Shown here one piece after another: positions 3,847 to 37,520 of a stretch of DNA of 64,000 bases. The position numbers were made by a program, and so were the translations under genes. Numbering within the stretch: the stretch's first letter is position 1; the number at the start of each line of letters is the position of its first letter. The notes beneath the pieces were generated by a model. The model had not been told where the DNA came from. It did no database searches and saw nothing but the letters and a program-made list of their open reading frames with translations. Source of the stretch: Hygrophila difformis (lineage: Eukaryota > Streptophyta > Magnoliopsida > Lamiales > Acanthaceae); assembly GCA_030278955.1 (NCBI GenBank), contig JAOANR010000010.1, forward strand, positions 23,094,444 through 23,158,443, read 5' to 3'.

Positions 3847-4563
3847 CCTTAGGCCCATCAGGGTCCATTAGCAATGGCATGCCTTTCTCACGTGTTCCAC
3901 AACCTCACCTGGATGTTTTTTGAACTCAATTCGGTCTTCAAATGCAATTCGGTATAGGCCGAATTTGTGTATATTGAATTGCATGAGATCTCTCCTTGTT
4001 GGCCTTTGGCTGGGATGTGGTCTTCAACATCAATTCGGTTTGAGTGTAGACCGAATTGAGTGTATCGAATTGCTCATGTCTCCTGCTTGGCTTCCTTGTT
4101 TTGAGGCAATTCGGTCTGTGCGAGCAATTCGGTGTAGACCAAATTGCTTAGACCGAATTGGGCATATCTTCATTTCTTCCCAACACTTTGTTCATTTTTC
4201 TTCTTCTTCTTCAGCAATTCGGTCTACATGGGCAATTCGGTATAGACCGAATTGCTGTAGACCGAATTGGTCTTCAACACTTTGCCAAAAATTTCATTTC
4301 GTCGGATTTTCACTCTTTTTCCCATCTTTTTATTCCTTTTCTTTTCTTTTTCCTTTTCTCATGTTTTTGGATTTTTCTTACACAAATACAATTAAAATTG
4401 TATATTTTTGTGTTTTTTATTACCAGCTTATTATTTTTACAAACTCGCATTAATCTGTCGAATTCAAGTGCTTTCTTATTAAAATAAGATGGGAATACAA
4501 TCAAAATTTCCGTCTTAGACATGGAAATGGATTGGAAATAATGGAAAATTTTGGCCATTATCA
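3847..4563 (-). mobile_element. Element A 3' LTR, terminal 717 bp
   Basis: Colinear with 37101-37814 of A's 5' LTR. The plus-strand edge CCATTATCA is the LTR start TGATAATGG read on the minus strand, and the internal region begins at 4564. The rest of the LTR should lie beyond the chromovirus, outside the window. Confidence 0.9.
3927..4270. repeat. Palindromic word array, A type, 3' LTR (4 units)
   Basis: Four units of two CAATTCGGT words followed by two ACCGAATTG words, some degenerate. The clearest unit is at about 4214-4270. The TATA box that would follow on the minus strand is removed here by the chromovirus insertion, but is present in the other LTR copy near 37079-37085. Confidence 0.9.
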
Positions 4564-4576
4564 ACATCCTCACATT
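4561..4576 (-). promoter_or_regulatory. AATGTGAGGATGTTGA motif at the 3' LTR boundary of A
   Basis: The 16-mer straddles the internal/3' LTR junction on the minus strand, where a polypurine tract is expected. Identical copies occur at 6843-6858 and 9291-9306 in A, and at three places in B. Confidence 0.7.
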
Positions 4577-6125
4577 TAATACTGATCGTCCCCGAGCAGT
4601 CAGAGTTAGTGCTCCTAAGAGCATGGACTCTGCACATTTAATCCATTTGCGTGGCTTCAAAAATTTCATTCTTTTTATATTGGGATAAGACAATCAAAAT
4701 TACAAGTATTAAATTCTCTTGGTTGTAGTGTTTAATGGAATGATAATTCTCACTTGAATAGGCATACAAACCAATCATTATTGTTAATTCTTCTTGAATA
4801 TGTGCTTAGAAAATCTCATTGGTTTAATTATTGAATTCAAGCATGACATGAACATTGATCAATCAAAGCAGAGCCTCACATATAGTAGAATCGGAAAATT
4901 CACTCACTCTCAAAGTTGGGTTTTAATCATCAACGCCCATAATCAAATTCAATTAAATTCTCCCATAAGCTTGCAATTAGACCAACTCGCCACCTACTCA
5001 TTTCTTCAGACCGAGATCCCAAGGTCTTATTCAAGGTCATAACGGGGCATACGGTTGTAACATTGGTATGGAAGGAAATTATTGGGTATAAGAGGTGACA
5101 CAATTCTATTCCATCATAACTTGGCATTATTTTTATTTAAAGTTTATGATCATCAATATTTCTTTCTTTCTTTTATTTTTCTTTTCCATTGCATGACATT
5201 AGACTATGTCTAATTTGCTTTGTCACTTGCAACTTATTTTTGTTGAATGGATGTCAACATTTTCCTCTTTTTTCTCTTCTTTTCTCTTCTTTCTTTTTTG
5301 ATCGGTTTTTGAATACCGATTGTATTTTTGATGATCATAAACTATAATGCCTTGATGGAATTGGTTTATGTACACTTGGGTTTGGTTTTCTTGGTCTTTT
5401 TATAAAGTTAGGAATAATATAGTGGCTTCAAAGAAAAATTAGGCTTATAGGCTCAGAGTGGTTAATCCTAAAGGGAAAATATTTTTGGGTTTGGATTTCA
5501 AACGAAGGCCAAAAATTTGGGTTTTTCTAAGTGCCTTGATCGTATACTCGATTTCGGGAATATGGCATGGTCTTGAATCGGTCCCGATTGCAAGTTCTAG
5601 TGTCCTTTAATCGAATTGATTTTCACACAACAAGGAAATAATGAGTAAAAGTGACTCATGGCTCAAATCTCACATGGTATGGTTTGATCATGTCATACCT
5701 TTATTCTTAAATTTATCCTTTGAAAATTTCTTGCATTTTATTCAATCAAATTCTCAACATGAAAATTTTGGTTTTCTTCCAAGTGATCATATCATTGGAT
5801 TTTTATAGCTCAAAACCTCAAAAATTTATATCATGCATATTTTTAATTATTTTATCCCAATTTAATAGTTTGAAAATTTCATCATTAGCCTAAATTCAAC
5901 ATGTGAATTTAGGTGACAAATTTATGCTTGTTTTATGCCGGTTATTTAATTGAAAGCTTTGTTTTTGGCATGGCAGTCGCTTATTCATCTCGGACTGCCA
6001 CACATCTTTTTCAAAATATTTTTGAGATCTCAAGACGAAAATCTCTTTGTGGAAAGCATGGAGGAATAATCCCGACTTACAGCTTTTGACAATCACGTCA
6101 AGTAGTTCCAAGGTTCGGCTTACAG
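4577..6125 (-). other. 3' non-coding region of element A
   Basis: AT-rich with pyrimidine tracts, and no convincing ORF. It is colinear on the opposite strand with 28850-30490 of element B; for example, the stretch around 5190-5240 about loss of TAGACTATGTCTA matches 29840-29870. It therefore belongs to the common element backbone and not to the cargo. Confidence 0.7.
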
Positions 6126-6807
6126 CTACGACCCTTGCAAGAGAATTCTGCTCCAGTGGACGAAGTTTGTCAAGCTGCAGGGGAGGCAATAGTCGTAGTC
6201 GCCCAGTTCGTCTAGGTCTTCTTGCATCCTTGGACAGTAGACCCTGGGCTCTTGGTCACCAAACAAATCAGGGGTTTCCAGGCTTTCTATCAGCCATGAG
6301 AGGACGTTGGTACCCACATATCTCAGGACTGATTCGTCGGTTGCCATTTTGTCTATCATTGCTACCCCTTGACGAACTTGGTCATTGTCCAGCTTGCTCA
6401 GCAGCATGTATCCCCTTACAAAGATTGATGCCTTATGATTATCCTCCATCCCTGGTCTTAGCAACTCGCACGCTCTCTCCTCATCCCCTGCTCCGAATGC
6501 CTGTAGAGCTGGGATGAGTTGGAGGTTGAAATTCCCTGCCTCCTCACATGTTCGGAGAAGTTCATCCTTCTGCCTCTGTACTCCCTGATCCCATATCTTT
6601 ATGATGGTGGTCTCTAATTCGCACCTTTTGTAGACAATGGGCAGATTTCCTGCAGCTCAGAGTTTCTTGCATGTTTTCTTGGCAGTGAATACCTTTTTGA
6701 TGTCGTCCTCCCCTATACGGGAGAGGATTTCTCCTAGGAGTTCCATCGGTAAGTCGAGCAGTTCAGTTCTTTCTTGCTCCTGAATCGGATCTGGAAGGAT
6801 GATACCT

Positions 6808-8441: not shown

Positions 8442-8961
8442 CAATTCGGTCTAATGGAGACCGAATCATCAATTCGGTCTAGACCGAATTGATGAAATCC
8501 CCAATTGTTTGTGAGGGATTCGGTCTCTAAGCCAATTCGGTATAGACCGAATTGGTTTGTAGACCGAATTGGGGGTAAATCACAAACAACTCACAGGCAA
8601 TTCGGTATTTAAAATCAATTCGGTATAGACCGAATTGACATCAGACCGAATTGAAGTGAGTATACCAAATTGGACACTTAGTAAAATAAAAGGGTTGCTT
8701 TTGCGAGGCAATTCGTTCTTTTCAGGCAATTCGGTATAGACCGAATTGCCTAGTAGACCGAATTGGTCACTTGCAGAGATAAGAATGAACTAATGCCTTT
8801 CATAGATCAATTCGGTCTATTTAAAATCAATTCGGTATAAACCGAATTCCTTAGACCGAATTGCTACTTAGCAATATTAACACCAAATGTGTGCCTTGGA
8901 GGATCAATTCGATCTTTGGGTTAATTCGGTCTAAACCGAATTGGCTTGAGACCGAATCGCC
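8442..8961. repeat. Palindromic word array, A type, internal (6 units)
   Basis: Six units built from CAATTCGGT and its inverse ACCGAATTG. Most have two direct words, a near-fused palindromic centre, then a second inverse word. Unit starts are roughly 80-105 bp apart. It lies between the end of pol and the cargo exon 1, directly upstream of the internal TATA box. Confidence 0.9.
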
Positions 8962-9407: not shown

Positions 9408-9650
9408 TTATTGAGTATAGGCCGGCTCTGATATCATTTGAACTTCTTTTTCGGGATCGAACTGTCCGAGGTACTCCTTCAATCTCTGTCCATTCACCAC
9501 CAGCTCTCCCTTGTCAGTTCGAATCTTGACAGCTCCACTCTTAAACACGTGCACCACTTCGTAAGGGCCTTCCCATCTGGATCTAAGCTTTCCGAGGAAC
9601 AGCTTCAACCTAGTATTGAATAACAAGACATTTTGGCCAACATAGAAGTG
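9408..9650 (-). pseudogene. Athila integrase C-terminal tail
   Basis: The minus-strand frame [30 protein letters not shown] is the typical C-terminal domain of Athila integrases (GPY-like). It is in a different frame from the main integrase ORF, so a small indel near 9630-9660 has broken the polyprotein. It ends at a stop at 9408. Confidence 0.85.
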
Positions 9651-11464
9651 TTTGGATTTGATACGACGATCGTTAACTTCTGGGTCCGCTCTTTGTAAAT
9701 CCTCGAGCTTTCATAAGCCTGCGCTCGTATTTCCTCAATTTCATTGAGGTCCAACTTGCGTTTGCCCTGAGCAACTCTTGGGTCAAAGTTAAGCGTTTTT
9801 ACGGCCCAGTAAGCCTTGTGCTCTAGTTCTACAGGCAAGTGACAGGCTTTTCCGAAGACAAGCCTATAAGGGGACATGCCAATGGGAGTCTTGAATGCAG
9901 TGCGGTATGCCCATAGAGCATCATTGAGTTTACGTGACCAATCTTTACGGGTTATCCCCATCGTGGCCTCGAGTATATGTTTGATTTCGCGGTTTGATAC
10001 TTCGACTTGGCCACTGGTTTGGGGATGGTAAGGCGTGCCTATCTTGTGGAGAATTCCCTTTTTGCTCATAAGACTTGCAAAAGCCTTATTGACAAAATGG
10101 GTTCCTCCATCAGATATGATTACCCTAGGTACACCAAATCTATTGAAAATGTTATTTTTCAAAAATTTAATGACTTGGTGACCATCATTGGTTGGCAGTG
10201 CAACCGCCTCAACCCACTTGGACACATAATCGACAGCTACCAAGATGTAATGATTCCCATCAGATGTCGGGAATGGTCCCATGAAGTCAATGCCCCATAC
10301 ATCAAAAATCTCAAGAGTAAGAATTCCTTTTTGAGGCATTTCATCCCTCTTGGAGATATTCCCTAGTCTTTGGCATCTGTCGCAAGCCTTAACAAACGCT
10401 CTGCAATCCTCGTAAATGGTAGGCCAATAGAAACCACACTCGAGCACTTTATGAGCTGTTCGAGTGGGGCTATGGTGACCTCCATATTTCGATTCATGGA
10501 ATTTTTTAGCGATTTCATAAGCCTCGTGCTCAGTTACACATCGTCTAATAATCGAGTCTGCACAATGCTTGAAGAGATAAGGATCTTCCCAGAAGTAGTT
10601 GACTACATCTCGGTTGAACCTTGCTTTATGGCCCTTGTGCTGGAATGGTGGGATTATTCCACATGCTAAAAAGTTAGCAATGGAAAACCACGGACAAGCT
10701 TGATCATGAAGGTACAAGGCAAACAGTTGCTCGTCCGGAAAATTTTCATTGACGGCTATCTCATTTTTATCATTTTCTATTCGAGACAAATGGTCAGCCG
10801 CACCATTGTCTTTGCCTTTTCTATCTTTTATTATGATATCAAATTCCTGCAACAGAAGTACCCACCTGATTAATCGAGGTTTGGCATCTTGTTTGCTAAA
10901 CAAGTATCTCAGTGCAGAGTGATCTGTGTATGCTATGGTTTTCGTACCAATGAGGTACTGTCTAAATATATCAAACGCGAAAACCACAACATACATCTCT
11001 TTCTCCGTGGTGGTGTAGTTGATTTGGGCTTCATTCAGGGCATGACTTGCGTAATGAATTACACAATGTTTCCCTCCCTTATGTTGCCCGAGAACTGCAC
11101 CTACGACGAGATCACTTGCATCGCACATTACCTCGAAAGGTATTGACCAATCGGGTGGTTGCACTATTGGAGAAGAAATCAACATCTTCTTGAGCGTGTC
11201 AAAGGCTTGAACACACGCTTCATTTATTACAAAAGGATTTTCTTTACAAAGCAGGTTAGTGAGCGGCTTGGCAATTTTAGAAAAATCTTTAATAAACCTT
11301 CGGTAAAAACCGGCATGCCCTAAGAAACTCCTAACCGCTTTTATTGAGTTGGGTAATGGAAGGTTGGATATGGCTGAGACCTTGGCTCTGTCGACTTCGA
11401 TGCCTGCGCGCGAGATGCGGTGACCCAACACGATCCCTTCAGTGACCATGAAATGGCACCTTTC
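9605..11464 (-). pseudogene. Athila RT C-terminus, RNase H and integrase
   Basis: Opens with the RT thumb region ([24 protein letters not shown]). RNase H follows (CDASD, TTTEKE, YTDHSAL, AADHLSR). Integrase follows with an HHCC zinc motif (H..H..CDRC), core acidic residues in GIDFMG and ISDGGTHF, and the glutamate in VEVSNRE. It is in the same frame as the upstream RT piece, separated only by a TAG at about 11464 where a tryptophan codon is expected (LVLN stop ERCHF). The reading frame is lost near the integrase C-terminus. Role: reverse transcription and integration of Ty3/gypsy elements. Confidence 0.92.
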
Positions 11465-12232
11465 CTAGTTCAAAACTAGGTTAGTGTCCTCGCATCTTTT
11501 TAAAATCTTTGCAAGATTGGTCAAGCACTCATCAAAAGTATCTCCATATACAGAGAAGTCATCCATGAACACTTCTATGCATTTTTCGATAAATTCTGAA
11601 AAGATAGACATCATGCAACGTTGAAATGTGGCAGGCGCATTGCAAAGTCCAAAAGGCATGCGCCTGTACGCAAAAGTTCCATATGGGCATGTGAAAGTAG
11701 TTTTATCCTGATCTTTGCTAGCTATTACAATTTGATTATAGCCCGAATAACCATCCAAAAAGCAGTAGTACTCCCTCCCGGCCAACCTCTCCAGCATCTG
11801 ATCAATGAACGGCAAGGGAAAATGATCTTTCCGCGTAGCGGTATTGAGCTTCCGGTAGTCGATGCAAACTCTCCAACCGGTCACTGGACGTGTCGCCACT
11901 TCTTCTCCTTGCTCGTTTGTCGTTATGCACATCCCCCCACGCTTAGGTACTACCTGCACTGGGCTAACCCATTTGCTGTCAGATATAGGATAGATGATAT
12001 CAGCATCTAAAAGCTTGATAACTTCTTTCCTTACCACCTCTTGCATGTGGGGATTCAGACGCTTTTGCGGTTGCCTTGAGGGCTTAAACTCCTCTTCCAT
12101 TAAAATTCTGTGCATGCAAATAGAGGGGCTTATTCCTTTTATATCAGAAATGGTCCATCCAATTGCATGTACATATTTCTTGAGAATGTCTACCAGAGCT
12201 TTTTCTTGGTCTTGTGTCAGCTTGGCTGACAC
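11465..12232 (-). pseudogene. Athila reverse transcriptase core
   Basis: About 255 residues. Motifs include AIGWTISDIKGISP, VQVVPKRGG, the catalytic segment TGWRVCIDYRKLNTAT, RMPFGLCNAPATFQRCM and the active-site EVFMDDF. These are characteristic of the Athila lineage. It ends at the premature TAG that also bounds the next piece, and is offset from the protease frame by a small gap at 12233-12268. Confidence 0.93.
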
Positions 12233-15553: not shown

Positions 15554-17300
15554 TGAAACTTTTCGACAATTTCCGTACGAGTATTTTCTAAAATATCAAG
15601 TTTGAATTTATTAAATGAAAAGAGTTATGATTTATGGAAGGGGTTTAAGGATATACTAAGGTTGTCATGTTTTTATTACTCGTGTTAAGAAACTGTGCCC
15701 CCGAAAGCGCATGGTGTCAAAAAGTTGCAGTAATTTATAGTAAGACCGGATCGTTCACTGGAGGATGTGTGATAGAAGCAGGGCCCACGTCGTTTACTAA
15801 GATTTTCCACTCGGTTACTCGTTTCAGGTTTTGCATTGGTTTCTAACAACTACTTGACATAATTTAAACTAGATTATGAAAGCAATAAAAGTTATACTAC
15901 AAAGCATGGTAAAATTATTCTAAAAAGCAATTAAATCTATTTTAAGAAAGCAATAAAAACAAGGCTAAGAAAGCGGATAAAATTATTCTACGAAAGCAGA
16001 TTTAAAATGTGATAGAAGGGACAGGGAGAAAATAATAAAGATTGGACAAGATTCAGATGAAACACAATTAAACTTCCATTTTAATTACACAGATCTTCGG
16101 TTGGGACATTTCGTCAGTTAGCTAACTCTCATGCTTTCTACACTATGTTCCCTTTAACAAACAGCTACTTACAGCGAGAATTTACATGCTCTTAAGACCT
16201 CAACTTCTAAAATACCATAGATTAATAACTCCCCCTGCCGAGGTATGTTATTTCTCCATGGTGGATAAGAAACACCTAACACATCATTAGTTGACATGCT
16301 AAGTACTCCTATCATCTCCCTTGTCACACCCAATGGTCTAAATTAAACCCCGAACTAATCCACAACTCTTAAACCCTACAACCGGCGGCCAACCACTAAT
16401 TCTTCCGAGTGACCTCTATAAAAGCATTTAAAAGGAAGCAGTAAAGAAAGCATTTAAAAATCTATCACTCGGAAGTCTCAAAAGCTATCTCATTCTGTTA
16501 GCATAAAAGAGCTCCTGGTTTCGATGACCAGATGCAGATTTAGAACTGCCCAGATATCAGTAAGCCACAGGGCTTATAACATCCGGTTAGTTATGAGATA
16601 CAAACTGAGTGGAACAGACCCGTGAAGATCTATTCCGAATGTACTCACTCAAGACTCAATTATAGGCTTTGGCGGAAGAAGATAGCAGTTGAAAGAATAC
16701 TCAACCCTACTTTAGAAATTAACCAAGGCCTACATGTTGTTCCTCTAGTATTATTTATCACATCTTATCTGCATCCAAGTGGACACTGATTCGATGCAAT
16801 ACTTAATAGAAGATTTCCAACATACAGTAATTTTGAGAAAACAATTGATATTTGAAAATTATTCCCTAAACAGGTACTAAACTCTCAATTGAAACACAGA
16901 TCCTTTCAGTCTAGATGAGACCTAATCGCTGACTCTGTTTCTAAGTTCTCAAAATCAACCCCCAGTAGAATATGAATTAGTCATAACTGTGAAATTATCC
17001 CTTACTCAGATCCGGATTTTATAAAGTGATTTTTGTTGGAAATTTATTATGCAACATCTGATTTAAATCAAGACTTCTATGTCAAAGGAGAAGGATCTCC
17101 AAAATATTATAGACCACAATATCTACATAATAATAGCATGCATACATGTATATGAGAAGTAAAATAAAATACCCCAAAATATATGGTAGGGTTAGACAGA
17201 ATTTGATACACAAAGATGGATTAGCCTTGAGATAAGGAGAATTTGGCTAAAAAGAGTGCTAGAAATAACTGGGGTTATCTGGACTGCAAACATCTGTTAT
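15554..17300 (-). mobile_element. Element A 5' LTR, inner part (before B insertion)
   Basis: The minus-strand LTR 3' end. Homologous to the terminal part of B's LTR. It breaks at 17300, where element B starts, and resumes at 35035 after the duplicated GTTAT. No coding capacity seen. Confidence 0.9.
17296..17300. repeat. Target site duplication of element B, left
   Basis: GTTAT directly before the LTR start TGATAATGG; repeated at 35030-35034 after the LTR end TTTCA. Confidence 0.92.
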
Positions 17301-17614
17301 TGATAATGGCCAGAAATGACCATTATTTTCAATCCATTTCCGTGTCTTAAACGGGCATTTGATCGCATTCCGGTCTTACATTAAGTAAGAAAGCAGTTGA
17401 ATTGGACTGATTTATGCATAATTGTAAAAATAATAAGCTGGTGTGAAAAAGGCATAAATATGTAATTTTATTACATATTTATGTTAGAAAAATCCAAAAA
17501 CATGAGAAAAAGAAAAGAAAAGAAAAAGGAATGAAGAAGATGGGAAAAAGAGAGAAAAGCCCACAAAAAAACATTTTCGGCCCATCTGGCCCAATTCAGC
17601 AGGCCCAGGAACAC

Positions 17615-17863
17615 CTTTGTCGCGGAAGCCCTTTTGTCGCGATGCATGGTTCCGCGACAAAGGAGGGTTCCGCGACCAAGCAGCTCAGATGAAGAAGGAA
17701 ACCAGCCAATACCTTTGTCGCGATACCCTTTGTCGCGATGCCCTGTTCCGCGACAAAGGTCTATTCCGCGACAAAGATGCACCATTAGAGACACAAGACC
17801 CAGTCGAGAAGCTTTGCCACATGCAGTATGTTCCGCGACCAAACTTCGTGCTCCGAGACAAAG
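17615..17863. repeat. Palindromic word array 1, B type, 5' LTR
   Basis: Two full four-site units plus a half unit, built from TTTGTCGCGGAAC-like words and their inverse GTTCCGCGACAAA. It lies about 70 bp upstream of the LTR TATA box. Confidence 0.92.
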
Positions 17864-17933
17864 CTGTGATGTGTGTGATGTCTTGAGACACAATGGGCTC
17901 AAATCAAGGCCCATGAGCTTAGGGTTTCCCCTC

Positions 17934-17942
17934 CATATATAT
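17934..17942 (+). promoter_or_regulatory. LTR promoter TATA box of B
   Basis: CATATATATGAGG follows array 1, in the position expected for the LTR promoter. The 3' LTR copy at 31142-31152 reads CTATATATATG. Confidence 0.6.
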
Positions 17943-18563
17943 GAGGTGTTTCCTTTGAGCAAGGGGTTGGAAGAATTTTAGAGAGAATATACATTCTTGA
18001 AGACAAGTTGGGAGCTCAGTAGTTTTGTTTAGTTTAGGGTAGTTTAGTTAGGTTTTTCTTGTATTATTTAATTCATGCACTAGTTAGATGTAGTTTATTG
18101 CACTTTGGTTAGATAGCCAGTTTTTACATCTTATTTCTTGCTCTAAACTTTCGTTTAAAGGTTTGTAATACCCAAATCATGGGTATTAACAATACCATTT
18201 AATAATATGGGAAAACATTCTTCATTTGTGTCCCAAAAATCATGAAATGGGTCTCACACCCCATGGATCTTATTGCTTTCGTTTTCTTTGGGTCATTTGA
18301 TCCTTATTTTGCATTTTAATGTCACTGCTTGGTGACTTTTCCTTGGATAATGTTGCATGCTTATGGGTGATCAAGCTTAGATTAGGGTTTCTTTAGTTTT
18401 AAGTTTGTTTTATTTCTATTATGTTCAAGCATGTTCTAGCTAGATTCAAATTTTGTTTTGTCATTTTTGGCTTAGTTTAGCTTTTGAATCTGAAATGGGT
18501 GAGATCACACACAATGCATGCCACTGTTCCACTTTACTTTTCTGACATGCGTCCTGGACACAC

Positions 18564-19029
18564 CTTTGTCGCGGAACAACTCTTGTCGCGGAACCACGTT
18601 CCGCGACAAAATGATACTTTGGCGACAAAGGTGCCAAAGAACACTTGTTAGTCATCATTTTGAAACCCTTGGTCGCGAAACAACTCTTGTCACGGAGCCA
18701 CGTTCCGCGACAAAATCTTGATTAGCGACCAAGGACCCAAATACTTGTGATTTAACTCTGGAAGGGCTTTGTCGCGAAGCAACCTTGTCGCGGAACCACG
18801 TTCCGCGACAAAACCTCTTGTTCCGCGACAAGAATTATGCCCTTGTCCGATTTTCAAACCCTTTGTCGCTATGACTCCTTTGCAGAACCACGTTCCGCGA
18901 CAAAATTTTAGCTTAGCGACAAAGCAAACCCTAATTTTCAAAACCCCATTCCTCTCATTCCCACCCTTTGTCGCGAAACCCTTGTCGCGCACCCATGGTC
19001 CGCGACACAAATTCTACTCCGCGACAAAG
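18564..19029. repeat. Palindromic word array 2, B type, 5' LTR (5 units)
   Basis: Five four-site units, each about 65-70 bp, starting roughly every 90-110 bp. Order in each: two TTGTCGCGG words, then two CCGCGACAA words, the central pair often joined as CGGAACCACGTTCCG. Confidence 0.92.
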
Positions 19030-21556
19030 TGGCATCTTTTTGCCAAAATTTTATTCTTCATCTTCCTCATTAATCAATTGGACCTTTATATTAATAGTTG
19101 AGGTTGAAATCCAATGATCTCAACCCATGATCACTTTGATATAAAGAATTTTGTTCAATTCCACTAAAAGACTTTTCTACAAATGATTAAACTCCAATGA
19201 TCTAAGTATATAATCCGGACTGTAATTAATTAATTATGGAATGAGTGATTATTTAGACATGAGGAGTAATTATGGAATCATTTCCATACCTTGCATGAGA
19301 AACCAATGTCTCTCATGCAAGATGACCCAAAAATATTTTTCTTTTATTTATTTTGTCCTTTCCGTGATGTGTGAAACAGCTAATAAGGAATATATCAGAT
19401 TAATGTTGGCGGGTATTCCCACACGGATAACTAGCTCGTGGTCTGTATATTAATTATTAGATGTTATTTTGCATGGTCCGAATAGTGGTCGGTGGAAGCC
19501 TTGGCGATTCGTCCATCTGGGATTATAATAGCTGCTCAGCTGACTCCTATTCGGATACAGTTTTCTTTTCTTTATCTTAATTTCAGACCTGAATTTCGAG
19601 CTGTAATATTATCAAACGATGTCGATCAACATTGCTTAAATAGTATTACAGTAAGAAACCATGTAGGTTTTTCTCTTATTTCACAGATAGTAGGGGTCTT
19701 GATGATAGCGATCACTGTTGTTAAGGTCTTCTACTGTCTAAAATCATCCCACCTGGAATAGTCAGGACCTGGATAGCAGATGTTTGCAGTTCGGATTATC
19801 TTGACTATTCTTGTCATCTTTTTAGCCAAAATAAATTCTTCTCAACTCCGGCTATTTCATCTCTGTGTACCAACTTCTGTCTAAACCCGTCTTATATTTT
19901 GGGTTATTTTATTTTACACTTCTCTATATCCTTATGCATGATAATATTATGTACTATTGTGGTCTGTAATTATTTTGGGATCCTTCCCTTGGACATAGAA
20001 GTCTTGATTTTATAATCAGATGTCTCACACTAAATTTTCAACAAAAATCCATTCATAAAATCCGGATCTGAGTAAGGGATAAATTCCACAGTTATGACTA
20101 ATTTAGATCCGACTGGGGGTTGATTTTGGGAAATTAGAAGCAGAGTCAGCGATTAAGCCTCATCTAGACTGAAAGGATCTGTGTTTTAATTGAGAGTCTA
20201 GTACCTGATAGGGAATGATTTTCAAACACTTATTGCTTCCCAAAATTGCTGTATGTTAGAAATCTGGTATTAAACATCACACTGAAATGGGATCTACTTG
20301 GATTCAATTACGGTGTGATAGATAATTCTAGAGGAACAACATATAGGCCTTGGTTATTCTCTAAGATAGGGTTGAGTTCCTTTCAACTGCTATCCTCCTC
20401 TGCAATTGCCTATTTTTGAGTCCTGAGTGAGTGCATCCGGAACGAACTAATATATTAGTTCGTTTCATTAGTTTGTACCTCATAACCACTCGATGGGAAG
20501 TGAACACTTCAAGCGGTTCACTGAGATTAGGGAATTCTTGATCCACACCCGGTCATCCTGACTGGGGGCTTTCTTTTACTACCAGGGTCAGACTTTCAAA
20601 AACCTCCGAGTGATAGGATTTTAATTGCTTCCTTTATCGCTTTCTTTTAACTGCTTTCTTTAGAGGTCACTCGGTTGTATTGAGAGTTGTGTAACTGCTA
20701 CTAGGACTGAGAGTTAAGGGATAGTTTAGGGCTTAATTAGAGTCTTTGGGGGTGACATGGGGGAGTGATAACCGTATTTGACACTTCAATAAATGATTTG
20801 TCAGATGTTGCTTGTCCACCACAGATGGCCAACATACTCTTGCAAGGCATTGCAAAGGGGAGTTGGAAGTTTGTGGTATCTTAGAGTTTGTTTTCTTAAG
20901 AGCATGTAAACTCTTATTGTAAGTATCTGTCTGTTAAAGGGAACATGGTATAGAGAGCATGAAAATTAGCTAACTGAAAGGATTATCCCAAGTTAAGATC
21001 TGTGTAACAAAATGGAAGTTTAATTGTGTTTCATCTGAATCTTGTCCAATATTTATTATTTTCTTCCTGTCTCTTCTGTCTCAATTTAAATATGCTTTCT
21101 TAGAGTAATCTTATTGCTTTCCTAGATTATATTTAATTCGCTTCCCAGAATAGTCTTATCTGTTTTATTATAATGGCTTTTATAGTGTAGTTTAATTTCT
21201 GTTAAGTAGTTGATAGTCAACACACACACTTGAATTGAGTAATCGAGTGGAAAATCTTAGTAAACGACGTGGGCTCTGCTTCTATCGCACATCCTTCAGT
21301 GAACGATCCGGTCTTACTATAAATTACTGCAATTTTTGACACCGTGTGCTTTCGGGCCACAGTTTCTTAAACACGAGCAATAAAAACGTGAAAACTTATA
21401 AATATATCCTTACTCACAACTCCGCCATCATAAATTGGTTTCATTAAATAAAACCTAAACCAGGATCATGATTTTTCGGAAAATACTCATGTAGTGGAAA
21501 TCTGTCAAAAGTTTCATAGCAGGGAATCTTATGGCAGGAATTGATGAGAAGTATCA

Positions 21557-21574
21557 TGGCACATATGCCGGGGA
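21557..21574 (+). other. Degenerate primer-binding-site copy inside B's LTR
   Basis: TGGCACATATGCCGGGGA, preceded by TATCA and followed by CCCTCAG, resembles the true junction TTTCA, TGGCGCC..TGCCGGGGA, GGATGCAG at 21813. A repeat of the LTR end is also visible at 21467-21518 versus 21771-21818. Element A's LTR lacks this extra block. Confidence 0.65.
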
Positions 21575-21817
21575 CCCTCAGTGTGACAGGCTGAAGGTCA
21601 ACCTATCCCGGCTGTACCATGAGATTTGTCAACAGTTTCATGACAGAGAGGACCACAGCGCCATTTGAAATTAAAGCACCACACTTGAGTAATAAAAAGA
21701 ATAGCAATCTCGATATATCCCTAAACCCCTTCCCGTGAATCATAACTCTTTTCATTTAATAAATCTAACCTGGTATATTTTAGAAAATGCTCGTGTGGGA
21801 AATTGTCAAAAGTTTCA

Positions 21818-21834
21818 TGGCGCCGTTGCCGGGG
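21818..21834 (+). promoter_or_regulatory. Primer binding site of B, tRNA-Asp type
   Basis: TGGCGCCGTTGCCGGGG immediately after the 5' LTR end; same as element A. Confidence 0.92.
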
Positions 21835-21948
21835 AGGATGCAGCGTCGTTTATTAAGAGAATTACCCTCATGATTACTCATAGATTAGCTTAGTTTAATG
21901 TAATATATCTAATTCAGAACAGAAAAAGTACCCTCAAAACTAATTGAA

Positions 21949-22334: not shown

Positions 22335-22730
22335 TTTGTCGCGGAATGGCCATTTTGTCGCGGAACAACGTTCCGCGACCAAGTGCAACTCCGCGACAAA
22401 ATTCCCCTTATCATCAAACCCTGTTTGTCTTTGTCGCGGAGTAACCATTTTGTCACGATGTCCAGCATCGCGACCAAGTGCAACTCCGCGACAAAACCCC
22501 ACTCATCCCTGAACACTGTTGTCTTTGTCGCGGAGCACTGCATCGCGACAAAGCTTCTGTTCCGCGACACGGGCACATCACCCCATTTTTCTTTCCTACT
22601 TTGTCGCGGTACCCTTTGTCGCGGAGCATGACTCCGCGACAAAGTCCCATATTCCGCGACACCTCTGATGTCGCCGAGCCTGGTCGCGCAACCCTGTTCC
22701 GCGACACTGGGCTAGGGTTCCGCGACCGGC
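22335..22730. repeat. Palindromic word array, B type, internal (about 5 units)
   Basis: Three full four-site units and two partial ones with the TTTGTCGCGGA/TCCGCGACAAA word. Same relative position as the internal array of A (8442-8961), directly upstream of the internal TATA box. Confidence 0.92.
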
Positions 22731-22737
22731 CCATTAG

Positions 22738-28849: not shown

Positions 28850-30487
28850 GTCAATCGAGCATAATTGTAAATATCATATAAGAGAATTTCATTTCCCTTG
28901 TGCAAAATCATTCTGATTGCAATGGAATCTCTTGTAATTGATATCATTCACTGTTTTAACTTTGGAATTTTGCAGTCCAAACAATTTTATTCTTGAAAAG
29001 ATGTCTGCACAGTCCAAGATGAATAAGAGACTGTCAGGCCAAAAATATGCTGTGGACATACTCTGTATGTCAGCAGTCCCTCTTTACTGCTTTAAATTAA
29101 ATAACCAGCAAAAATATGCATAAACTTGCTCTAAATTCACATGTTGAATTTAGGCTTGTGATTAAATTTTCAAACCTTTAAATTGGGATAATATAATTGA
29201 AGACATGCATGAAATGAATTCCTGAGGTTTTGAGCTATAAGAATTTAATGATGCGATCAGCTTATTGGGTAATAAATCTGCATGTTAGAGATTTCGATTG
29301 AATAAAATGTTAGAATTAAGCTTTGATTAAATTTGAGAATATTGTATGACATGAATCAACCCAACCTTGTGAGATTTGAGCCATGAGTCACTTTTACTCA
29401 TTCTTCTCTTTGATGTGTGAATCATTTTGATTAAAGAAAACTAGAACTTGCAATTGGGACCGATTCAAGACCATGCCATATTCCCGAAATCGAGCATATG
29501 ATCGAGGCACTTAGAAAAACCCAAATTTTTGGCCTTCTTTTGAAATCCAAACCCAAAAAAAAAAAAAAAAATTCCCTTTAGGATTAACCATTTTGAGCCT
29601 TAAGCCTAATTTTTCTTTGAAACCCTCTATATTTTCCTAACCTACAAAAAGACCAAGAAATTCAAACCCAAGTGTGCAAGGATAAATTCTATCAAAGGCA
29701 TTAAACTTATGATCATCAATCCATGTTAATCGGTATGTTATAAATCGATTCAAAAAAAAGAAGAGAGAGAAAAGAAAAAGAAAAAGATAAAAAAGGTTGA
29801 ACTCCATTCAACATTCAACACAAATAAATTGCAAATGACAAAGTAAATTAGACATAGTCTAATGTCATGCAATAGAAGGAGAAAAGCAAAAGAAAGAAAG
29901 AAAAATATTGATGATCATAAATTTTTCAAATAAAAATGCCAAGTCATGATGGAATGAACTCTTGCCACTTATTAGCCCAATAATTTCCCTTTCCTACCTA
30001 ATGTTACAACCGTATGCCCCGTTATAACCCTTGAATAAGACCTCATGATCTCGATTTGAAGAAATGAGCCGGTGGCGAGTTGGTCTGATTGCAAGCTTAT
30101 GGGATAATTTAATGAAAATCGATTTTGAGCGTTCATGATTAAACACCTGATTGAGAGTGAGTGAATTTTCCGATTCTCTTATATGTGAGGCTCTGTTTTA
30201 TTGCACATGTTCATGTCATCCCTTGATTCTCATCCTTAATCTTTGCATCTTTCAAACATGATATTCATGAAGGGTTGATAATAATGTTTGATTTGTAGGC
30301 CCGGTATAGTGAGCAAGTATCATTTTATTAAACACTGCAATCAAGGGAATTTAATACTTGTAGTTTTTTATTGTCTTATCCCAATCCAAAAAGAATGTGA
30401 TTTATGAAGCCACGAAAATGAATTGAATATGTAGAGTCCGTGTTCTTAGGAACATTGACTCTGACTGCTCGGGGACGATCAATATTA
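28850..30487 (+). other. 3' non-coding region of element B
   Basis: Homologous to 4577-6100 of element A on the other strand. Contains A-rich runs (about 29555) and no credible ORF. The short frame at 28938-29123 shares MNKRL..GQK with a frame in A (around 5990), so it may be a relic of a common coding end. Confidence 0.65.
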
Positions 30488-30503
30488 AATGTGAGGATGT
30501 TGA
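30488..30503 (+). promoter_or_regulatory. AATGTGAGGATGTTGA at the 3' LTR boundary of B
   Basis: The 16-mer overlaps the LTR start TGA, at the polypurine-tract position. Confidence 0.75.
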
Positions 30504-30814
30504 TAATGGCCAGAAATGACCATTATTTTCAATCCATTTCCGTGTCTTAAACGGGCATTTGATCGCATTCCGGTCTTACATTAAGTAAGAAAGCAGTTGA
30601 ATTGGACTGATTTATGCATAATTGTAAAAATAATAAGCTGGTGTGAAAAAGGCATAAATATGTAATTTTATTACATATTTATGTTAGAAAAATCCAAAAA
30701 CATGAGAAAAAGAAAAGAAAAGAAAAAGGAATGAAGAAGATGGGAAAAAGAGAGAAAAGCCCACAAAAAGAACATTTTCGGCCCATCTGGCCCAATTCAG
30801 CAGGCCCAGGAACA

Positions 30815-31064
30815 CCTTTGTCGAGGAAGCCCTTTTGTCGCGATGCATGGTTCCGCGACAAAGGAGGGTTCCGCGACCAAGCAGCTCAGATGAAGAAGGA
30901 AACCAGCCAATACCTTTGTCGCGATACCCTTTGTCGCGATGCCCTGTTCCGCGACAAAGGTCTATTCCGCGACAAAGATGCACCATTAGAGACACAAGAC
31001 CCAGTCGAGAAGCTTTGCCACATGCAGTATGTTCCGCGACCAAACTTGGTGCTCCGAGACAAAG
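30815..31064. repeat. Palindromic word array 1, B type, 3' LTR
   Basis: Copy of 17615-17863, with the first word mutated from TCGCGG to TCGAGG. Confidence 0.9.
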
Positions 31065-31774
31065 CTGTGATGTGTGTGATGTCTTGAGACACAATGGGCT
31101 CAAATCAAGGCCCATGAGCTTAGGGGTTGGAAGCTTTCCCCTCTATATATATGAGGTGTTTCCTTTGAGCAAGGGGTTGGAAGAATTTTAGAGAGAATAT
31201 ACATTCTTGAAGACAAGTTGGGAGCTCAGTAGTTTAGTTTAGTTTAGGGTAGTTTAGTTAGGTTTTTCTTGTATTATTTAATTCATGCACTAGTTAGATA
31301 TAGTTTATTGCACTTTGGTTAGATAGCCAGTTTTTACATCTTATTTCTTGCTCTAAACTTTCGTTTAAAGGTTTGTAATACCCAAATCATGGGTATTAAC
31401 AATACCATTTAATAATATGGGAAAAACATTCTTCATTTGTGTCCCAAAAATCATGAAATGGGTCTCACACCTCATGAATCTTACTGCTTTCGTTTTCTTT
31501 GGGTCATTTGATCCTTATTTTGCATTTTAATGTCACTGCTTGGTGACTTTTCCTTGGATAATGTTGCATGCTTATGGGTGATCAAGCTTAGATTAGGGTT
31601 TCTTTAGTTTTAAGTTTGTTTTATTTCTATTATGTTCAAGCATGTTCTAGCTAGATTCAAATTCTGTTTTGTCATTTTTGGCTTAGTTTAGCTTTTGAAT
31701 CTGAAATGGGTGAGATCACACACAATGCATGCCACTGTTCCACTTTACTTTTCTGACATGTGTCCTGGACACAC

Positions 31775-32243
31775 CTTTGTCGCGGAACAACTCTTGTCGC
31801 GGAACCACGTTCCGCGACAAAATGATACTTTGGCAACAAAGGTGCCAAAGAACACTTGTTAGTCATCATTTTGAAACCCTTGGTCGCGAAACAACTCTTG
31901 TCACGGAGCCACGTTCCGCGACAAAATCTTGATTAGCGACCAAGGACCCAAATACTTGTGATTTAACTCTGGAAGGGCTTTGTCGCGAAGCAACCTTGTC
32001 GCGGAACCACGTTCCGCGACAAAACCTCTTGTTCCGCGACAAGAATTATGCCCTTGTCCGATTTTCAAACCCTTTGTCGCTATGACTCCTTGTCGCAGAA
32101 CCACGTTCCGCGACAAAATTTTTGCTTAGCGACAAAGCAAACCCTAATTTTCAAAACCCCATTCCTCTCATTCCCACCCTTTGTCGCGAAACCCTTGTCG
32201 CGCACCCATGGTCCGCGACACAAATTCTACTCCGCGACAAAGT
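31775..32243. repeat. Palindromic word array 2, B type, 3' LTR (5 units)
   Basis: Copy of 18564-19029. The fourth unit keeps the CTTGTCGCAG word that is damaged in the 5' LTR. Confidence 0.9.
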
Positions 32244-35029
32244 GGCATCTTTTTGCCAAAATTTTATTCTTCATCTTCCTCATTAATCAATTGGACCTTT
32301 ATATTAATAGTTGAGGTTGAAATCCAATGATCTCAACCCATGATCACTTTGATATAAAGAATTTTGTTTAATTCCACTAAAAGACTTTTCTACAAATGAT
32401 TAAACTCCAGTGATCTAAGTATATAATCCGGACTGTAATTAATTAATTATGGAATGAGTGATTATTTAGACATGAGGAGTAATTATGGAATCATTTCCAT
32501 ACCTTGCATGAGAAACCAATGTCTCTCATGCAAGATGACCCAAAAATATTTTTCTTTTATTTATTTTGTCCTTTCCGTGATGTGTGTAACAGCTAATAAG
32601 GAATATATCAGATTAATGTTGGCGGGTATTCCCACACGGATAACTAGCTCGTGGTCTGTATATTAATTATTAGATGTTATTTTGCATGGTCCGAATAGTG
32701 GTCGGTGGAAGCCTTGGCGATTCGTCCATCTGGGATTATAATAGCTGCTCAGCTGACTCCTATTCGGATACAGTTTTCTTTTCTTTATCTTAATTTCAGA
32801 CCTGAATTTCGAGCTGTAATATTATCAAACGATGTCGATCAACATTGCTTAAATAGTATTACAGTAAGAAACCATGTAGGTTTTTCTCTTATTTCACAGA
32901 TAGTAGGGGTCTTGATGATAGCGATCACTGTTGTTAAGGTCTTCTGCTGTCTAAAATCATCCCACCTGGAATAGTCAGGACCTGGATAGCAGATGTTTGC
33001 AGTTCGGATTATCTTGACTATTCTTGTCATCTTTTTAGCCAAAATAAATTCTTCTCAACTCCGGCTATTTCATCTATGTGTACCAACTTCTGTCTATACC
33101 CGTCTTATATTTTGGGTTATTTTATTTTACACTTCTCTATATCCTTATGCATGATAATATTATGTACTATTGTGGTCTGTAATTATTTTGGGATCCTTCC
33201 CTTGGACATAGAAGTCTTGATTTTATAATCAGATGTCTCACACTAAATTTTCAACAAAAATCCATTCATAAAATCCGGATCTGAGTAAGGGATAAATTCC
33301 ACAGTTATGACTAATTTAGATCCGACTGGGGGTTGATTTTGGGAAATTAGAAGCAGAGTCAGCGATTAAGCCTCATCTAGACTGAAAGGATCTGTGTTTT
33401 AATTGAGAGTCTAGTACCTGATAGGGAATGATTTTCAAACACTTATTGCTTCCCAAAATTGCTGTATGTTAGAAATCTGGTATTAAACATCACACTGAAA
33501 TGGGATCTACTTGGATTCAATTACGGTGTGATAGATAATTCTAGAGGAACAACATATAGGCCTTGGTTATTCTCTAAGATAGGGTTGAGTTCCTTTCAAC
33601 TGCTATCCTCCTCTGCCATTGCCTATTTTTGAGTCCTGGGTGAGTGCATCCGGAACGAACTAATATATTAGTTCGTTTCATTAGTTTGTACCTCATAACC
33701 ACTCGATGGGAAGTGAACACTTCAAGCGGTTCACTGAGATTAGGGAATTCTTGATCCACACCCGGTCATCCTGACTGGGGGCTTTCTTTTACTACCAGGG
33801 TCAGACTTTCAAAAACCTCCGAGTGATAGGATTTTAATTGCTTCCTTTATCGCTTTCTTTTAACTGCTTTCTTTAGAGGTCACTCGGTTGTATTGAGAGT
33901 TGTGTAACTGCTACTAGGACTGAGAGTTAAGGGATAGTTTAGGGCTTAATTAGAGTCTTTGGGGGTGACATGGGGGAGTGATAACAGTATTTGACACTTC
34001 AATAAATGATTTGTCAGATGTTGCTTGTCCACCACAGATGGCCAACATACTCTTGCAAGGCATTGCAAAGGGGAGTTGGAAGTTTGTGGTATCTTAGAGT
34101 TTGTTTTCTTAAGAGCATGTAAACTCTTATTGTAAGTACCTGTCTGTTAAAGGGAACATGGTATAGAGAGCATGAAAATTAGCTAATTGAAAGGATTATC
34201 CCAAGTTAAGATCTGTGTAACAAAATGGAAGTTTAATTGTGTTTCATCTGAATCTTGCCCAATATTTATTATTTCTTCCTGTCTCTTCTGTCTCAATTTA
34301 AATTTGCTTTCTTAGAGTAATCTTATTGCTTTCCTAGATTATATTTAATTCGCTTCCCAGAATAGTCTTATCTATTTTGTTATAATGGCTTTTATAGTGT
34401 AGTTTAATTTCTGTTAAGTAGTTGATAGTCAACACACACACTTGAATTGAGTAATCGAGTGGAAAATCTTAGTAAACGACCTGGGCTCTGCTTCTATCGC
34501 ACATATTCCAGTGAACGATCCGGTCTTACTATAAATTACTGCAATTTTTGACACCGTGCGCTTTTGGGCCACAGTTTCTTAAACACGAGCAATAAAAACG
34601 TGAAAACTTATAAATATATCCTTACTCACAACTCCGCCATCATAAATTGGTTTCATTAAATAAAACCTAAACCAGGATCATGATTTTTCGGAAAATACTC
34701 ATGTAGTGGAAATCTGTCAAAAGTTTCATGGCAGGGAATCTTATGGCAGGAATTGATGAGAAGTATCATAGCACATATGCCGGGGACCCTCAGTGTGACA
34801 GGCTGAAGGTCAACCTATCTCGGCTGTACCATGAGATTTGTCAACAGTTTCATGACAGAGAGGACCACAGCGCCATTTGAAATTAAAGCACCACACTTGA
34901 GTAATAAAAAGAATAGCAATCTCGATATATCCCTAAACCCCTTCCCGTGAATCATAACTCTTTTCATTTAATAAATCTAACCTGGTATATTTTAGAAAAT
35001 GCTCGTGTGGGAAATTGTCAAAAGTTTCA

Positions 35030-35034
35030 GTTAT
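35030..35034. repeat. Target site duplication of element B, right
   Basis: GTTAT, matching 17296-17300. Confidence 0.92.
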
Positions 35035-35652
35035 CCAGTTCCCAATTAATCCAAATAGAATGATTTTTAGACAGTGAGAAACCCTTAATGACAGTGATCG
35101 CTATCACCAAGAGTCCTACTATTCATGAGAGAGTAAAAAATCACATGTTCCTTACTACAGTATTATCATAACAGTGTTGATCGACACTGCCTGATATTAC
35201 CATAGCTTGAAATTCAGGTTGAAATTAAGATAAAGAAAAGAAAACTGTATCTGATTAGGAATTGGCTGAGTGGCTAATCGTTATCCCCGCAAAGGGACCT
35301 TTTTGCCGGAGCTTCCACCAATCACTAATCAGATCATGCAAAACAACGAGTAATAATTAATACACAGAAGACGAGCTAATCGTTATCCCGGTAAAGGGAC
35401 CTTTTTGCCAACATTGATCTGTGATATTCCTTATTACCCATTCATACACACAATTAAAGGGAAAAGATGAAATTAAAAGAATATTTTGGGTATTGTGTAA
35501 GTATCAATTACACAATAATTTAGACACTAATGGTTGAGATGTGTAATGGATAAAATCAAGTGTAATGGGCCTAAGCCCAATACACCCATGCAACTTACAC
35601 AACTCAAGGAAATAAAAAAAATATTTTTGGGATTTTAAAAAATAGGAAGAAG

Positions 35653-36196
35653 TCAATTCGGTCTAGATGAGTTAAGTGCAATATAGACCGAATTAACAAT
35701 GCATGAGGAATGAAATATTACCTTACCCAATTAATCCTTGCAAGGATGTGAAACATCATCTAATTCGGTTTTGACAAGCAATTCGGTATAGACCGAATTG
35801 GACAAACCGAATTGATGAAGTCATTCCTTCACTCATATTTGGCTAAGGCATTTGCTTCAAAAGAGTGTTTAATTCGATTTACCAGGGTAATTCGGTATAG
35901 ACCGAATTGGTAAATCAAATTAGTTCAAGACGAAAAATAAACTAAGGCACGATGGGATGATATGCATACAATGTGATTTCCAAAGTCAATTCGGTCTACA
36001 TGGGCAATTCGGTATAGACCGAATTGCATAGACCGAATTGCATGGAAACCTCATGAAGGTGACACTTTTTGCTATGCAATTCAGTCTTCATAGGCAATTC
36101 AGTCTTGCCTTAGACCGAATTGCATATAATTTTCTCATGAAGGAAGATAAACAAACACTTTCACCATGTAAATCGAATTGCCTTATATCGAATTGC
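35653..36196. repeat. Palindromic word array 2, A type, 5' LTR (about 6 units)
   Basis: About six units of the CAATTCGGT/ACCGAATTG four-site element, the best at 35985-36040; outer units are degenerate. Confidence 0.88.
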
Positions 36197-37078
36197 ATGC
36201 AGTTTTTCACATAAGTATATTTTTACTTGATTCACAAGTATGGAGTGCGGTTTCTAATTTGATGTGGTTTATGATAGATAGGATTGATCCCATCACTCAT
36301 TTCACATCAATGTCATCTCGCGGTCATACTTGTAAATATTTTGTGGTTATCCATAATCATGCATATTCAATGGGTAATAGTATGAGTTAAAACCTAAAAC
36401 CCACAAACAAGAAATTCTAGGATTAAACAACCTAAAATTCTAAGAACAACATGCATAAAAATAAGAACACTTAAGTTAACTAAGGCAACAATAAATAAGA
36501 TTTCTAAACAAAAATATTAAAGAAAGCATTTAAAACCTATTTCTACGAAGTCTTAAGTCATCTAAAAACCTAAGAACACTTATTTGAGCTCTAAGGCATG
36601 AAATCACACCAAATACCCATTAAACATGCATTTATTAAGAATGAAAGCCAACTAGAAACACATTAAATGAAACCTAGTTGAAACAAACATTCATTCTACC
36701 ATATTTATTGCTAAAGAAAGCATTTAAAGGGTGTTAAACACATGAGTCATAATCCATTTCTGTAAATTTTTCTTGCATTAAACACTTGAAAGCATATTAA
36801 ATAACCCAAAACCATCATTAAATTGATGTTTGAGTTCATTCTAACTAGAAAGCATATAAAAATATGGACATGGCTACTCTAAATGGTAGTAACAAGCTTT
36901 ACAACTAAAACTAAGATTTAAAGCAATAAAACTAATCTATAGTGCATGAAAAATAAACTAACTAAACTACCTACCTAAACCTTAAGGGCTGAAAAACCTG
37001 GTACTCTTTGTCTTCCCCAAGTGTTCAAGAGTTGGTTCATGTATCTATGAGATATCTTCAGTGTTGGTGAGGATTAGC

Positions 37079-37085
37079 TTTTATA
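37079..37085 (-). promoter_or_regulatory. LTR promoter TATA box of A
   Basis: The minus strand reads AGTATAAAAGC, downstream of array 1, as in element B. Confidence 0.6.
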
Positions 37086-37180
37086 CTTGTTCTTCAAAAC
37101 CCTTAGGCCCATCAGGGTCCATTAGCAATGGCATGCCTTTCTCACGTGTTCCACAACCTCACCTGGATGTTTTTTGAACT

Positions 37181-37520
37181 CAATTCGGTCTTGAAATGCA
37201 ATTCGGTATAGACCAAATTGGTGTATATTGAATTGCATGAGATCTCTCCTTCTTGGCGTTTGGCTGGGATGTGGTCTTCAACATAAATTCGGTTTGAGTG
37301 TAGACCGAATTGAGTGTATCGAATTGCTCATGTCTCCTGCTTGGCTTCCTTGTTTTGAGGCAAGTCGGTCTGTGCGAGCAATTCGGGACCGAATTGCTTA
37401 GACCAAATTGGGCATATCTTCATTTCTTCCCAACACTTTGTTCATTTTTCTTCTTCTTCTTCAGCAATTCGGTCTACATGGGCAATTCGGTATAGACCGA
37501 ATTGCTGTAGACCGAATTGG
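37181..37520. repeat. Palindromic word array 1, A type, 5' LTR (4 units)
   Basis: Copy of 3927-4270 in the other LTR; the third unit has an internal deletion relative to that copy. Confidence 0.9.

Follow-up and report, generated by a model that had tools for sequence, protein, structure and literature searches.

The closest described counterpart of the arrays considered here is the repeated motif (RM) of the Sireviruses, a palindrome that occurs in many copies in the upper long terminal repeat (LTR), upstream of the promoter, where it makes up CpG islands, with further copies upstream of the gene that follows pol (ENV). The motif differs by element and, among the elements compared in that report, is called Sirevirus-specific (Bousios et al. 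2010, PMC2829016). In maize, palindrome clusters in Sirevirus LTRs are small-RNA hotspots, according to brief accounts of Bousios et al. 2016 (PMC5311732, PMC10760457). Here we describe a Ty3/gypsy family found in 64,000 nucleotides of Hygrophila difformis (contig JAOANR010000010.1, positions 23,094,444 to 23,158,443; hereafter the window), where two related elements, A and B, carry arrays of short CpG-containing words in their LTRs and interiors. In the clade of this family to which A belongs (clade II), nearly every site in an element changes by the same letters from one copy type to another, with the spacers between the sites still alignable.

The layout resembles that of the Sirevirus RM in its clustered palindromes in the upper LTR and before the post-pol gene, ahead of predicted promoters (a comparison of sequence only), and in a CGG-CCG core present in the A, F and B words (Osr8 CGGTCAGACCG compared with A CGGTATAGACCG). 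Unlike in the RM, the core is absent from the D word, occurs in C just in the ACGGCGCTA variant and in H in part (TCCGCGTCAT). The present family also differs in its 4.5 kb LTRs, in four-site units (W W W' W', where W' is the inverse word), in having two LTR arrays, and in holding several word types in one genome, two-word arrays included. Because the pol order of A (reverse transcriptase, RNase H, integrase) is that of Ty3/gypsy elements and Sireviruses are Ty1/copia, the family is not a Sirevirus member; by analogy, it very likely works like the RM system. Its likeness to the VANDAL transposons lies in short element-specific motifs that are repeated in non-coding parts and diverge between relatives, in VANDAL together with their recognition (PMC5735166, PMC10398659). 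VANDAL elements carry a gene for the anti-silencing protein VANC, which binds their motifs; the present motifs, putative binding sites, are dyads in four-site units. The VANDAL analogy drawn in an earlier note on this DNA thus survives in the sense of "works like": no VANC-type gene was found by Pfam in the frames scanned, which were part of all frames and were searched with no VANC profile, and the Sirevirus motif is the closer parallel. Retand elements share a long region from pol to the 3' LTR with (family-specific tandem) repeats and an extra open reading frame, and differ in LTRs of 0.3-1.2 kb (PMC11963269). Transposon control arrays are already known. Subfamilies of Tnt1 reportedly differ in their U3 control sequences, the whole module being different, with no concerted drift of dozens of sites described. 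Literature searches confined to open-licence PMC papers turned up no account of dyad arrays that switch words in an Athila-type family.

Within the window, the A word (CAATTCGGT/ACCGAATTG) occurs in 46 exact copies, all inside A, compared with a mean of 0.43 and a maximum of 3 when the window was resampled 30 times under a first-order Markov model. The B word (TTTGTCGCGGAAC), counted at up to two mismatches, gives 57 matches (resampling mean, 1.4; maximum, 4), of which 55 lie inside B and two at 12253 and 39183. Both elements are built on the unit W-W-W'-W', and the earlier note's observation of four-site arrays with different words in A and B is borne out. The step across the dyad, from W to the facing W', is 16 in 17/17 pairs of B and 13 in 13/18 pairs of A (the others being 9, 19, 19, 19 and 33), and the dyad spans 22 bp in A to 29 bp in B; the outer steps are looser (W to W, 14-19; W' to W', mostly 17-21). 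That the LTR backbones around the arrays are homologous, as the note had also claimed, holds for the first ~285 bp of the LTR (81-82% identity) and the last ~2.2 kb (74-88% by piece), and the elements can further be aligned in a stretch immediately 5' of the interior array (70%) and in one that leads up to the 3' LTR (82%). The array-bearing LTR middle gave no convincing A/B alignment, spacers included, so more than the words differs there, and the window alone cannot tell an exchange of words from an exchange of the whole array zone.

Elsewhere in the genome, copies of the A clade bear the A word CAATTCGGTCTA, a mixture of CAATTCGGTTTA and CAATGCGGTTTA (mixed A/G copies), the F word CGATGCGGTTTA or the D word CAATTCGAATTA; their arrays align site by site, and homologous columns hold A, G, F or D words depending on the copy. 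Words were compared with spacers at columns where both copies fit a template accepting both states within one substitution, so that more-changed sites are left out of the word identities that follow. Between copies of the same type, word identity is 0.98 against 0.79 in spacers for A-A, 0.96 against 0.82 for D-D, and 0.89 against 0.81 for mixed-mixed. Between types, the corresponding values are 0.88-0.95 against 0.77-0.88 for A-mixed, 0.72-0.77 against 0.78-0.79 for A-F, 0.76-0.80 against 0.76-0.82 for mixed-F, and 0.61-0.65 against 0.74-0.76 for F-D. Words thus clearly exceed spacers in same-type pairs, are close to them when D is set against A or mixed copies, and fall below them for F compared with A or D. 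The letters themselves are uniform: in the F copy, across array-1 and array-2 sites, position 2 is G in 41/44 and position 5 is G in 43/44, and the A copies L052 and L061, taken together with the window U3, have A at position 2 in 69/70 sites and T at position 5 in 68/70. The LTR starts of A and F are 92.6-94.0% identical, similar to the 92.1% between A copies. Mixed copies have G at position 5 in 15/26 (L044), 12/22 (L054) and 2/17 (L069) sites and at position 2 in 4, 3 and 0 sites, respectively. Since G is more frequent in them at position 5 than at position 2, position 5 seems to change before position 2 on the way from A to F.

The existence of two-word arrays makes the change look stepwise. 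A one-step block switch in the A clade was rejected because of these arrays, and re-expansion of the arrays from a single unit because spacers remain alignable. The earlier note had supposed that all sites of an element changed together, and had held that a gradual drift between words, or arrays absent from most active copies, would refute its reading. Among the sampled copies, one word, or two close ones, is indeed shared by the LTRs and interior of an element, although in the A clade not through one block event; there the words drift gradually, with A, mixed A/G, F and D words at homologous sites and two words at once in some arrays. Missing arrays are not the rule, since arrays are present at 59/60 sampled LTR starts.

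Arrays kilobases apart in one element agree in word in most of the copies examined. In F, array 2 carries the array-1 word at 11 exact F sites, with A, G and D at 0; in H it does so at 10 sites within one mismatch; and in D at 5 in the piece examined, with 0 of other words. The interior array has the LTR word in both A and B of the window. The C interior array (L051) has 8 C sites within one mismatch, with A at 0 and B at 1, and that of B2, an element with the B word, has 4 sites within two mismatches. The F interior array (L098) holds 13 exact F words, 2 G and 0 A, and the D interior array (L099) 15 D words and none of A, G or F. Being placed between paired LTRs, loci L097, L098 and L099 were assigned to the elements of L031, L053 and L071. 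Over the 1.77 kb of pol that lead up to the array, the D locus L099 matches A at 88% identity; even so, every exact word in it is a D word.

An alternative hypothesis is neutral turnover, in which the words are carried along passively as unequal exchange, conversion or template switching spreads the arrays. Array spacers of the A family change faster than the surrounding LTR (pairwise difference, 0.117 versus 0.0725 in the rest of the LTR, with 0.059 in non-CpG word columns; 25 of 30 loci, five partial loci being left out), as turnover would have it, and the slow LTR-start module would permit module exchange in clade I. Against this, A-clade sites keep their own alignable spacers while the word changes, conversion of just 9-12 bp is implausible, and arrays kilobases apart agree in word. 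For clade II the findings thus largely contradict turnover, and overall we consider it improbable.

How widely the word types are distributed was surveyed in the genome of the window itself (915 Mb, 246 contigs). The LTR-start motif, at up to three mismatches, occurs 11,966 times and its A-clade form, at up to one mismatch, 3,444 times, with 0 in either control. A query with the A U3 gave 131 matches, and all 30 of the 30 loci taken hold the exact A word, 8 to 28 times each; a query with the B U3 gave at least 87 matches, at least 37 of them near full query length (40 of 7636 candidates scored). The F dyad has 365 + 370 = 735 strand-hits genome-wide, in which perfect palindromes are counted twice, compared with a control of 0, so F is not a single odd copy. 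The family-wide collection of words that the earlier note had suggested was carried out in part, with 60 LTR starts typed on contig C1 in three batches of 20. Every fifth of 100 listed LTR-start places (batch 1) yielded 12 B, 1 B', 5 C (one of them, L048, with its arrays displaced by an insertion), 1 mixed A/G and 1 D. Twenty hand-picked from 100 listed places of the A-clade motif form (batch 2) yielded 8 A, 2 mixed, 1 F and 9 D, and 20 unpaired-looking starts hand-picked from the LTR-start motif list (batch 3) yielded 6 B, 1 B', 4 C, 2 H, 6 of a degenerate group I and 1 without an array (L073). With one chromosome sampled and two batches hand-picked, the type proportions are not genome frequencies. 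Insertions cut L083 (C) and L086 (I), and L073 appears by eye to be a rearranged copy in which the LTR start is followed by reversed pol-like sequence. Outside the A clade the words are TTTGTCGCGGAAC for B, ACGACGCTA/ACGGCGCTA for C and TTGACGTCAA and its kin for H. The typing of I, H and B', and the clade I word network (C, I, B', B, H), were made by eye from the arrays and serve as a lead only; the resemblance among these words is likewise by eye.

On a tree of the word-free first 215 bp of the LTR, the 14 B rows fall into a single clade (100/99) surrounded by C and B' rows, the 10 D rows into another (90/91) among A rows, and the word-type label changes 8 times compared with 25.7 changes needed by shuffled labels. 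With more clade I copies, on a tree whose bootstrap had not settled, B again forms one clade (100/98), C, H, I and B' are near a star, and one C and one B' copy are sisters (99/86). The LTR start is 91-97% identical between C and B or B', compared with 86-87% for gag and pol between C and B2, and is therefore a slow module. Its slowness makes module exchange possible in clade I, and the case for stepwise change consequently rests on clade II.

Array 1 and the interior array each stand just ahead of a promoter-like stretch. A putative TATA box follows array 1 at LTR position 636 in B, 729 in A, 511 in C, 807 in D and 873 in mixed copies, with presumed site II and/or telo motifs after array 1 in each of these types. 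In F the TATA box stands at 853, with neither site II nor telo in the stretch scanned. Some 10-30 bp after the interior array comes a TATA-like stretch (TATATAT in A, TATAAAT in C, TATAAAA in F and, by eye, TATTTAAA in B). A leader comes next, and after it a short first exon with GGTAA at its end; TTGGGCTTAGGCCCAT follows array 2 in A and F. Observed/expected CpG is 1.0-1.6 in the arrays and 0.3-0.5 outside them, a ratio that describes rather than proves, since the words were chosen for having CpG. Further copies keep the dyad step, at 13 in 11/16 pairs of A and 8/9 of F, 17 in 19/20 of C, and one equal value in 19/19 of B (counted there with a 12-letter word, so that 15 corresponds to 16 in the window count). 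We consider it rather probable, judging by these sequence features, that the arrays are clustered upstream binding sites of a sequence-specific protein controlling the promoters of the element, as enhancer or operator clusters. Such a protein would explain the constraint within types, the common words kilobases apart and the place before promoters. A rigid homodimer might read the dyad at the center of a unit, with additional monomers on its outer sites, in keeping with mostly fixed inner and looser outer steps.

Units that are inverted repeats might instead be kept for their ability to fold into hairpins or cruciforms, whether as RNA or as single-stranded DNA. In line with this, small-RNA hotspots are reported at maize Sirevirus palindromes (PMC5311732, PMC10760457), with which our arrays share a palindrome-rich, fast-evolving LTR region. 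Unlike what pairing would lead one to expect, arm co-variation was not detected here. In the two-word arrays of C, variant-bearing arms match no more than shuffled partners (inner, 17/28 versus 14.7; outer, 9/17 versus 8.8). The A/G arms match above the shuffled mean, not significantly, in a set too small to tell either way. Moreover, separate units and arrays kilobases apart share a word, a sharing that pairing alone does not need, and the D dyads are perfect palindromes without a loop. Selection for hairpins is thus very improbable, and architecture, promoter-side position and the lack of detectable arm co-variation favor protein-binding sites.

Who the binder might be is a separate matter. 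The most likely candidate would be one or more host transcription factors, perhaps a series of paralogues. The main alternative, a variant of the protein-binding reading, is that the element encodes its own binder, VANC-like, and that this self-made regulator co-evolves with its sites so that each subfamily frees or activates only itself. Feedback would be possible, since in A, B, C and F the interior array is followed by a promoter-like stretch and then by a short first exon that belongs to the element; VANC targets, too, are arrays of element-specific motifs diverging between relatives (PMC5735166, PMC10398659). The third genes speak against it. The C element encodes PF23310 TPR_27 (L051:7545-8183; 30.6 bits, cut-off 27; F-box below cut-off), and A a decayed TPR_27 relative (window 6656-6132, minus strand; 26.5 bits, just under cut-off). 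In B the slot holds an unrelated PF20167 frame (function not known) flanked by alignable upstream and 3' parts, and is perhaps an exchangeable cargo slot. A and C have the same kind of third gene and unrelated words, and Pfam scans, which covered part of the element frames, detected no known DNA-binding domain. An element-encoded binder is therefore doubtful. The earlier note's proposal of binding sites is thus supported in part: the architecture, promoter position and arm test speak for it, and the frames scanned did not reveal a binder encoded by the element. The third gene was also considered as the determinant of the word and rejected, since in the few elements seen its kinds do not track the words; a link between the third gene of a D copy (L093) and that of B was weak (24 residues, 50%, E 1.8e-4) and was not used.

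A word could change because its binder drifts, because control passes from one paralogous host factor to another, or because the element evades small RNAs. In the last case, escape from host small RNAs or from RNA-directed DNA methylation (RdDM) would drive the concerted change, the dyad being a highly repeated stretch of small interfering RNA (siRNA) length and the need for binding keeping the words alike. The dyad spans given above are of that length, and RdDM targets the non-coding regions of VANDAL elements, where escape has been proposed as a driver of motif change (PMC10398659). Escape by itself would not explain why words stay alike at dozens of sites whose spacers have diverged. We regard this driver as unlikely, although it could act alongside a drifting protein and is compatible with a self-encoded binder. 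Because the explanations are not mutually exclusive, the likelihoods we attach to them overlap.

We speculate that the preferred word drifts by single letters, with arrays tolerating both variants meanwhile, and that the sites of an element would follow this drift until its subfamily answers to another word, CpG being the common pivot of the words seen. On this proposal, which we put forward tentatively as a possibility, lineages would have shifted every control site they carry, in both LTR arrays and in the interior one, to another word, letter by letter, following a drifting partner protein, with the CpG pivot and the dyad geometry as the main constants. Several observations weigh against the protein-binding reading as a whole. 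Words and spacers are about equal for A-D (0.79-0.87 and 0.77-0.87), and for mixed-D words are about at spacer level rather than below it (0.76-0.83 and 0.74-0.79), so the D case rests on uniform letters and not on rate. Shifted masks reach a value as low as that of the words in 72/2000 shifts, which makes the contrast of words with the whole LTR modest, the contrast with array spacers being strong. No series links the A word to the B word among the sampled copies. In group I and B' the arrays are heterogeneous and keep less strictly to one word per element; the step of H dyads varies (16, 24, 14, 17), and the D word overlaps itself, so that its dyad step is not countable. Array 2, which comes after the putative TATA box of the LTR, may be transcribed. 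A D copy (L058) has no interior array in the 3.6 kb examined (two pieces), although the array may have been lost together with pol. Finally, the A/G arms match at 8/12 inner (versus 5.5) and 7/7 outer (versus 5.3) positions, neither significant in so small a set, and some unit-level arm matching may occur there.

The coordinates of both window elements are collected in Table 1. B is an intact LTR element (17301-35029, plus strand) nested in the 5' LTR of A; it begins with TG and ends with CA, is flanked by a 5-bp target duplication as expected of an LTR insertion, and has LTRs 98.9% identical over 4531 columns. Its two frames of at least 200 amino acids sit between stretches matching the post-pol region of A and the stretch before the A 3' LTR. 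Pfam found no gag or pol match in these frames, so that B does not count as autonomous, and blastn found no match between the A pol region and B. B2 (L094, L097; C1:70550-77600) has the B word, gag and integrase, with an LTR spacing of 15.3 kb, and the non-autonomous B therefore has a gag-pol-bearing relative with the same word. For the PF20167 domain of B, a single-sequence structure model gave no usable fold (mean predicted local distance difference test score, 29.7), and no homologue of the B-frame protein was found at E 1e-3 among 7992 candidates scored; two PDB sequence matches at E 0.34-0.35 were taken as chance. In A, Pfam identifies RVT_1 in one frame and RT_RNaseH, Integrase_H2C2 and rve in the next. 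The primer site TGGCGCCGTTGCCGGGGA, which directly follows the LTR in A, B and B2, is presumably complementary to tRNA-Asp, and from it and from reverse transcriptase motifs A is tentatively assigned to the Athila lineage. A locus outside the window (L024, C2:23086068-23088157), ~10 kb further left on the same strand, is 95% identical, begins at the corresponding point of the LTR and probably makes up the remainder of the A 3' LTR.

Table 1. Coordinates of elements A and B and of their arrays in the window
Feature	Position	Strand	Remarks
A 5' LTR, first part (U3 arrays)	35030..37813	-	LTR start at 37813
A LTR array 1 (word CAATTCGGT, four-site units)	37181..37519	-	
A LTR array 2	35654..36195	-	
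A 5' LTR, remainder across B	15554..17299	-	primer site begins at 15553, minus strand
A pol pieces (reverse transcriptase, RNase H, integrase; two frames)	9605..12232	-	Pfam
A interior array	8442..8959	-	after pol, ~20 bp before TATATAT and short first exon
A 3' LTR, first ~717 bp	3847..4563	-	ends at 3847, where another repeat starts
A array 1, 3' LTR fragment	3927..4269	-	
B 5' LTR	17301..21817	+	target duplication GTTAT
B LTR array 1 (word TTTGTCGCGGAAC)	17616..17862	+	then site II, telo box, TATATAT (LTR position 636)
B LTR array 2	18565..19028	+	
B primer binding site TGGCGCCGTTGCCGGGGA	21818..21835	+	
B interior array	22335..22729	+	then GGCCCATTAGTATTTAAA (TATA-like, by eye), short first exon ending GGTAAG
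B third-gene frames	24412-25509 and 25362-28730	+	PF20167 Transposase_32 at residues 728-904 of second frame
B 3' LTR	30501..35029	+	
B array 1, 3' LTR	30817..31063	+	
B array 2, 3' LTR	31776..32241	+	

The window holds other repeats and coding frames. Another repeat, with copies at 1166-3846 and 39616-42253, contains short stem-loop arrays (2938-3185 and 41386-41567) in which the loop, TGCCTCGTTAGTG, stays the same and both arms of the stem vary (GAGAC/GTCTC, GAGAT/ATCTC, GGAT/GTCC), paired changes among them. Tandem repeats comprise four 29-bp units with a palindrome-like core, CGATTGCAAGCAATC, at 59533-59646, about 5.5 copies of a 172-bp unit at 51049-51999, and short repeats of a 23-bp unit beginning TCGCTGAAAT at 45257-45427. 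A frame for a C1-domain protein lies at 46766-47902 (plus strand), and reverse transcriptase/RNase H frames with zf-RVT, probably of a non-LTR element, at 52787-55665 (minus strand).

These arrays bear on the question of how a code shared by a protein and its sites can change if dozens of sites have to do so together. The ~12,000 LTR starts of this one genome hold several code states, two-word arrays included, on a common backbone; LTR pairs would allow the steps of word change to be dated, and the co-evolution of sites and binder is directly testable. If the proposed letter-by-letter change is true, subfamilies become separate regulatory "species," and the two-word arrays have been caught midway through the change. 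That Ty1/copia Sireviruses and this Ty3/gypsy family resemble each other in layout suggests that CpG-centered dyads have been put to use convergently before LTR and post-pol promoters.

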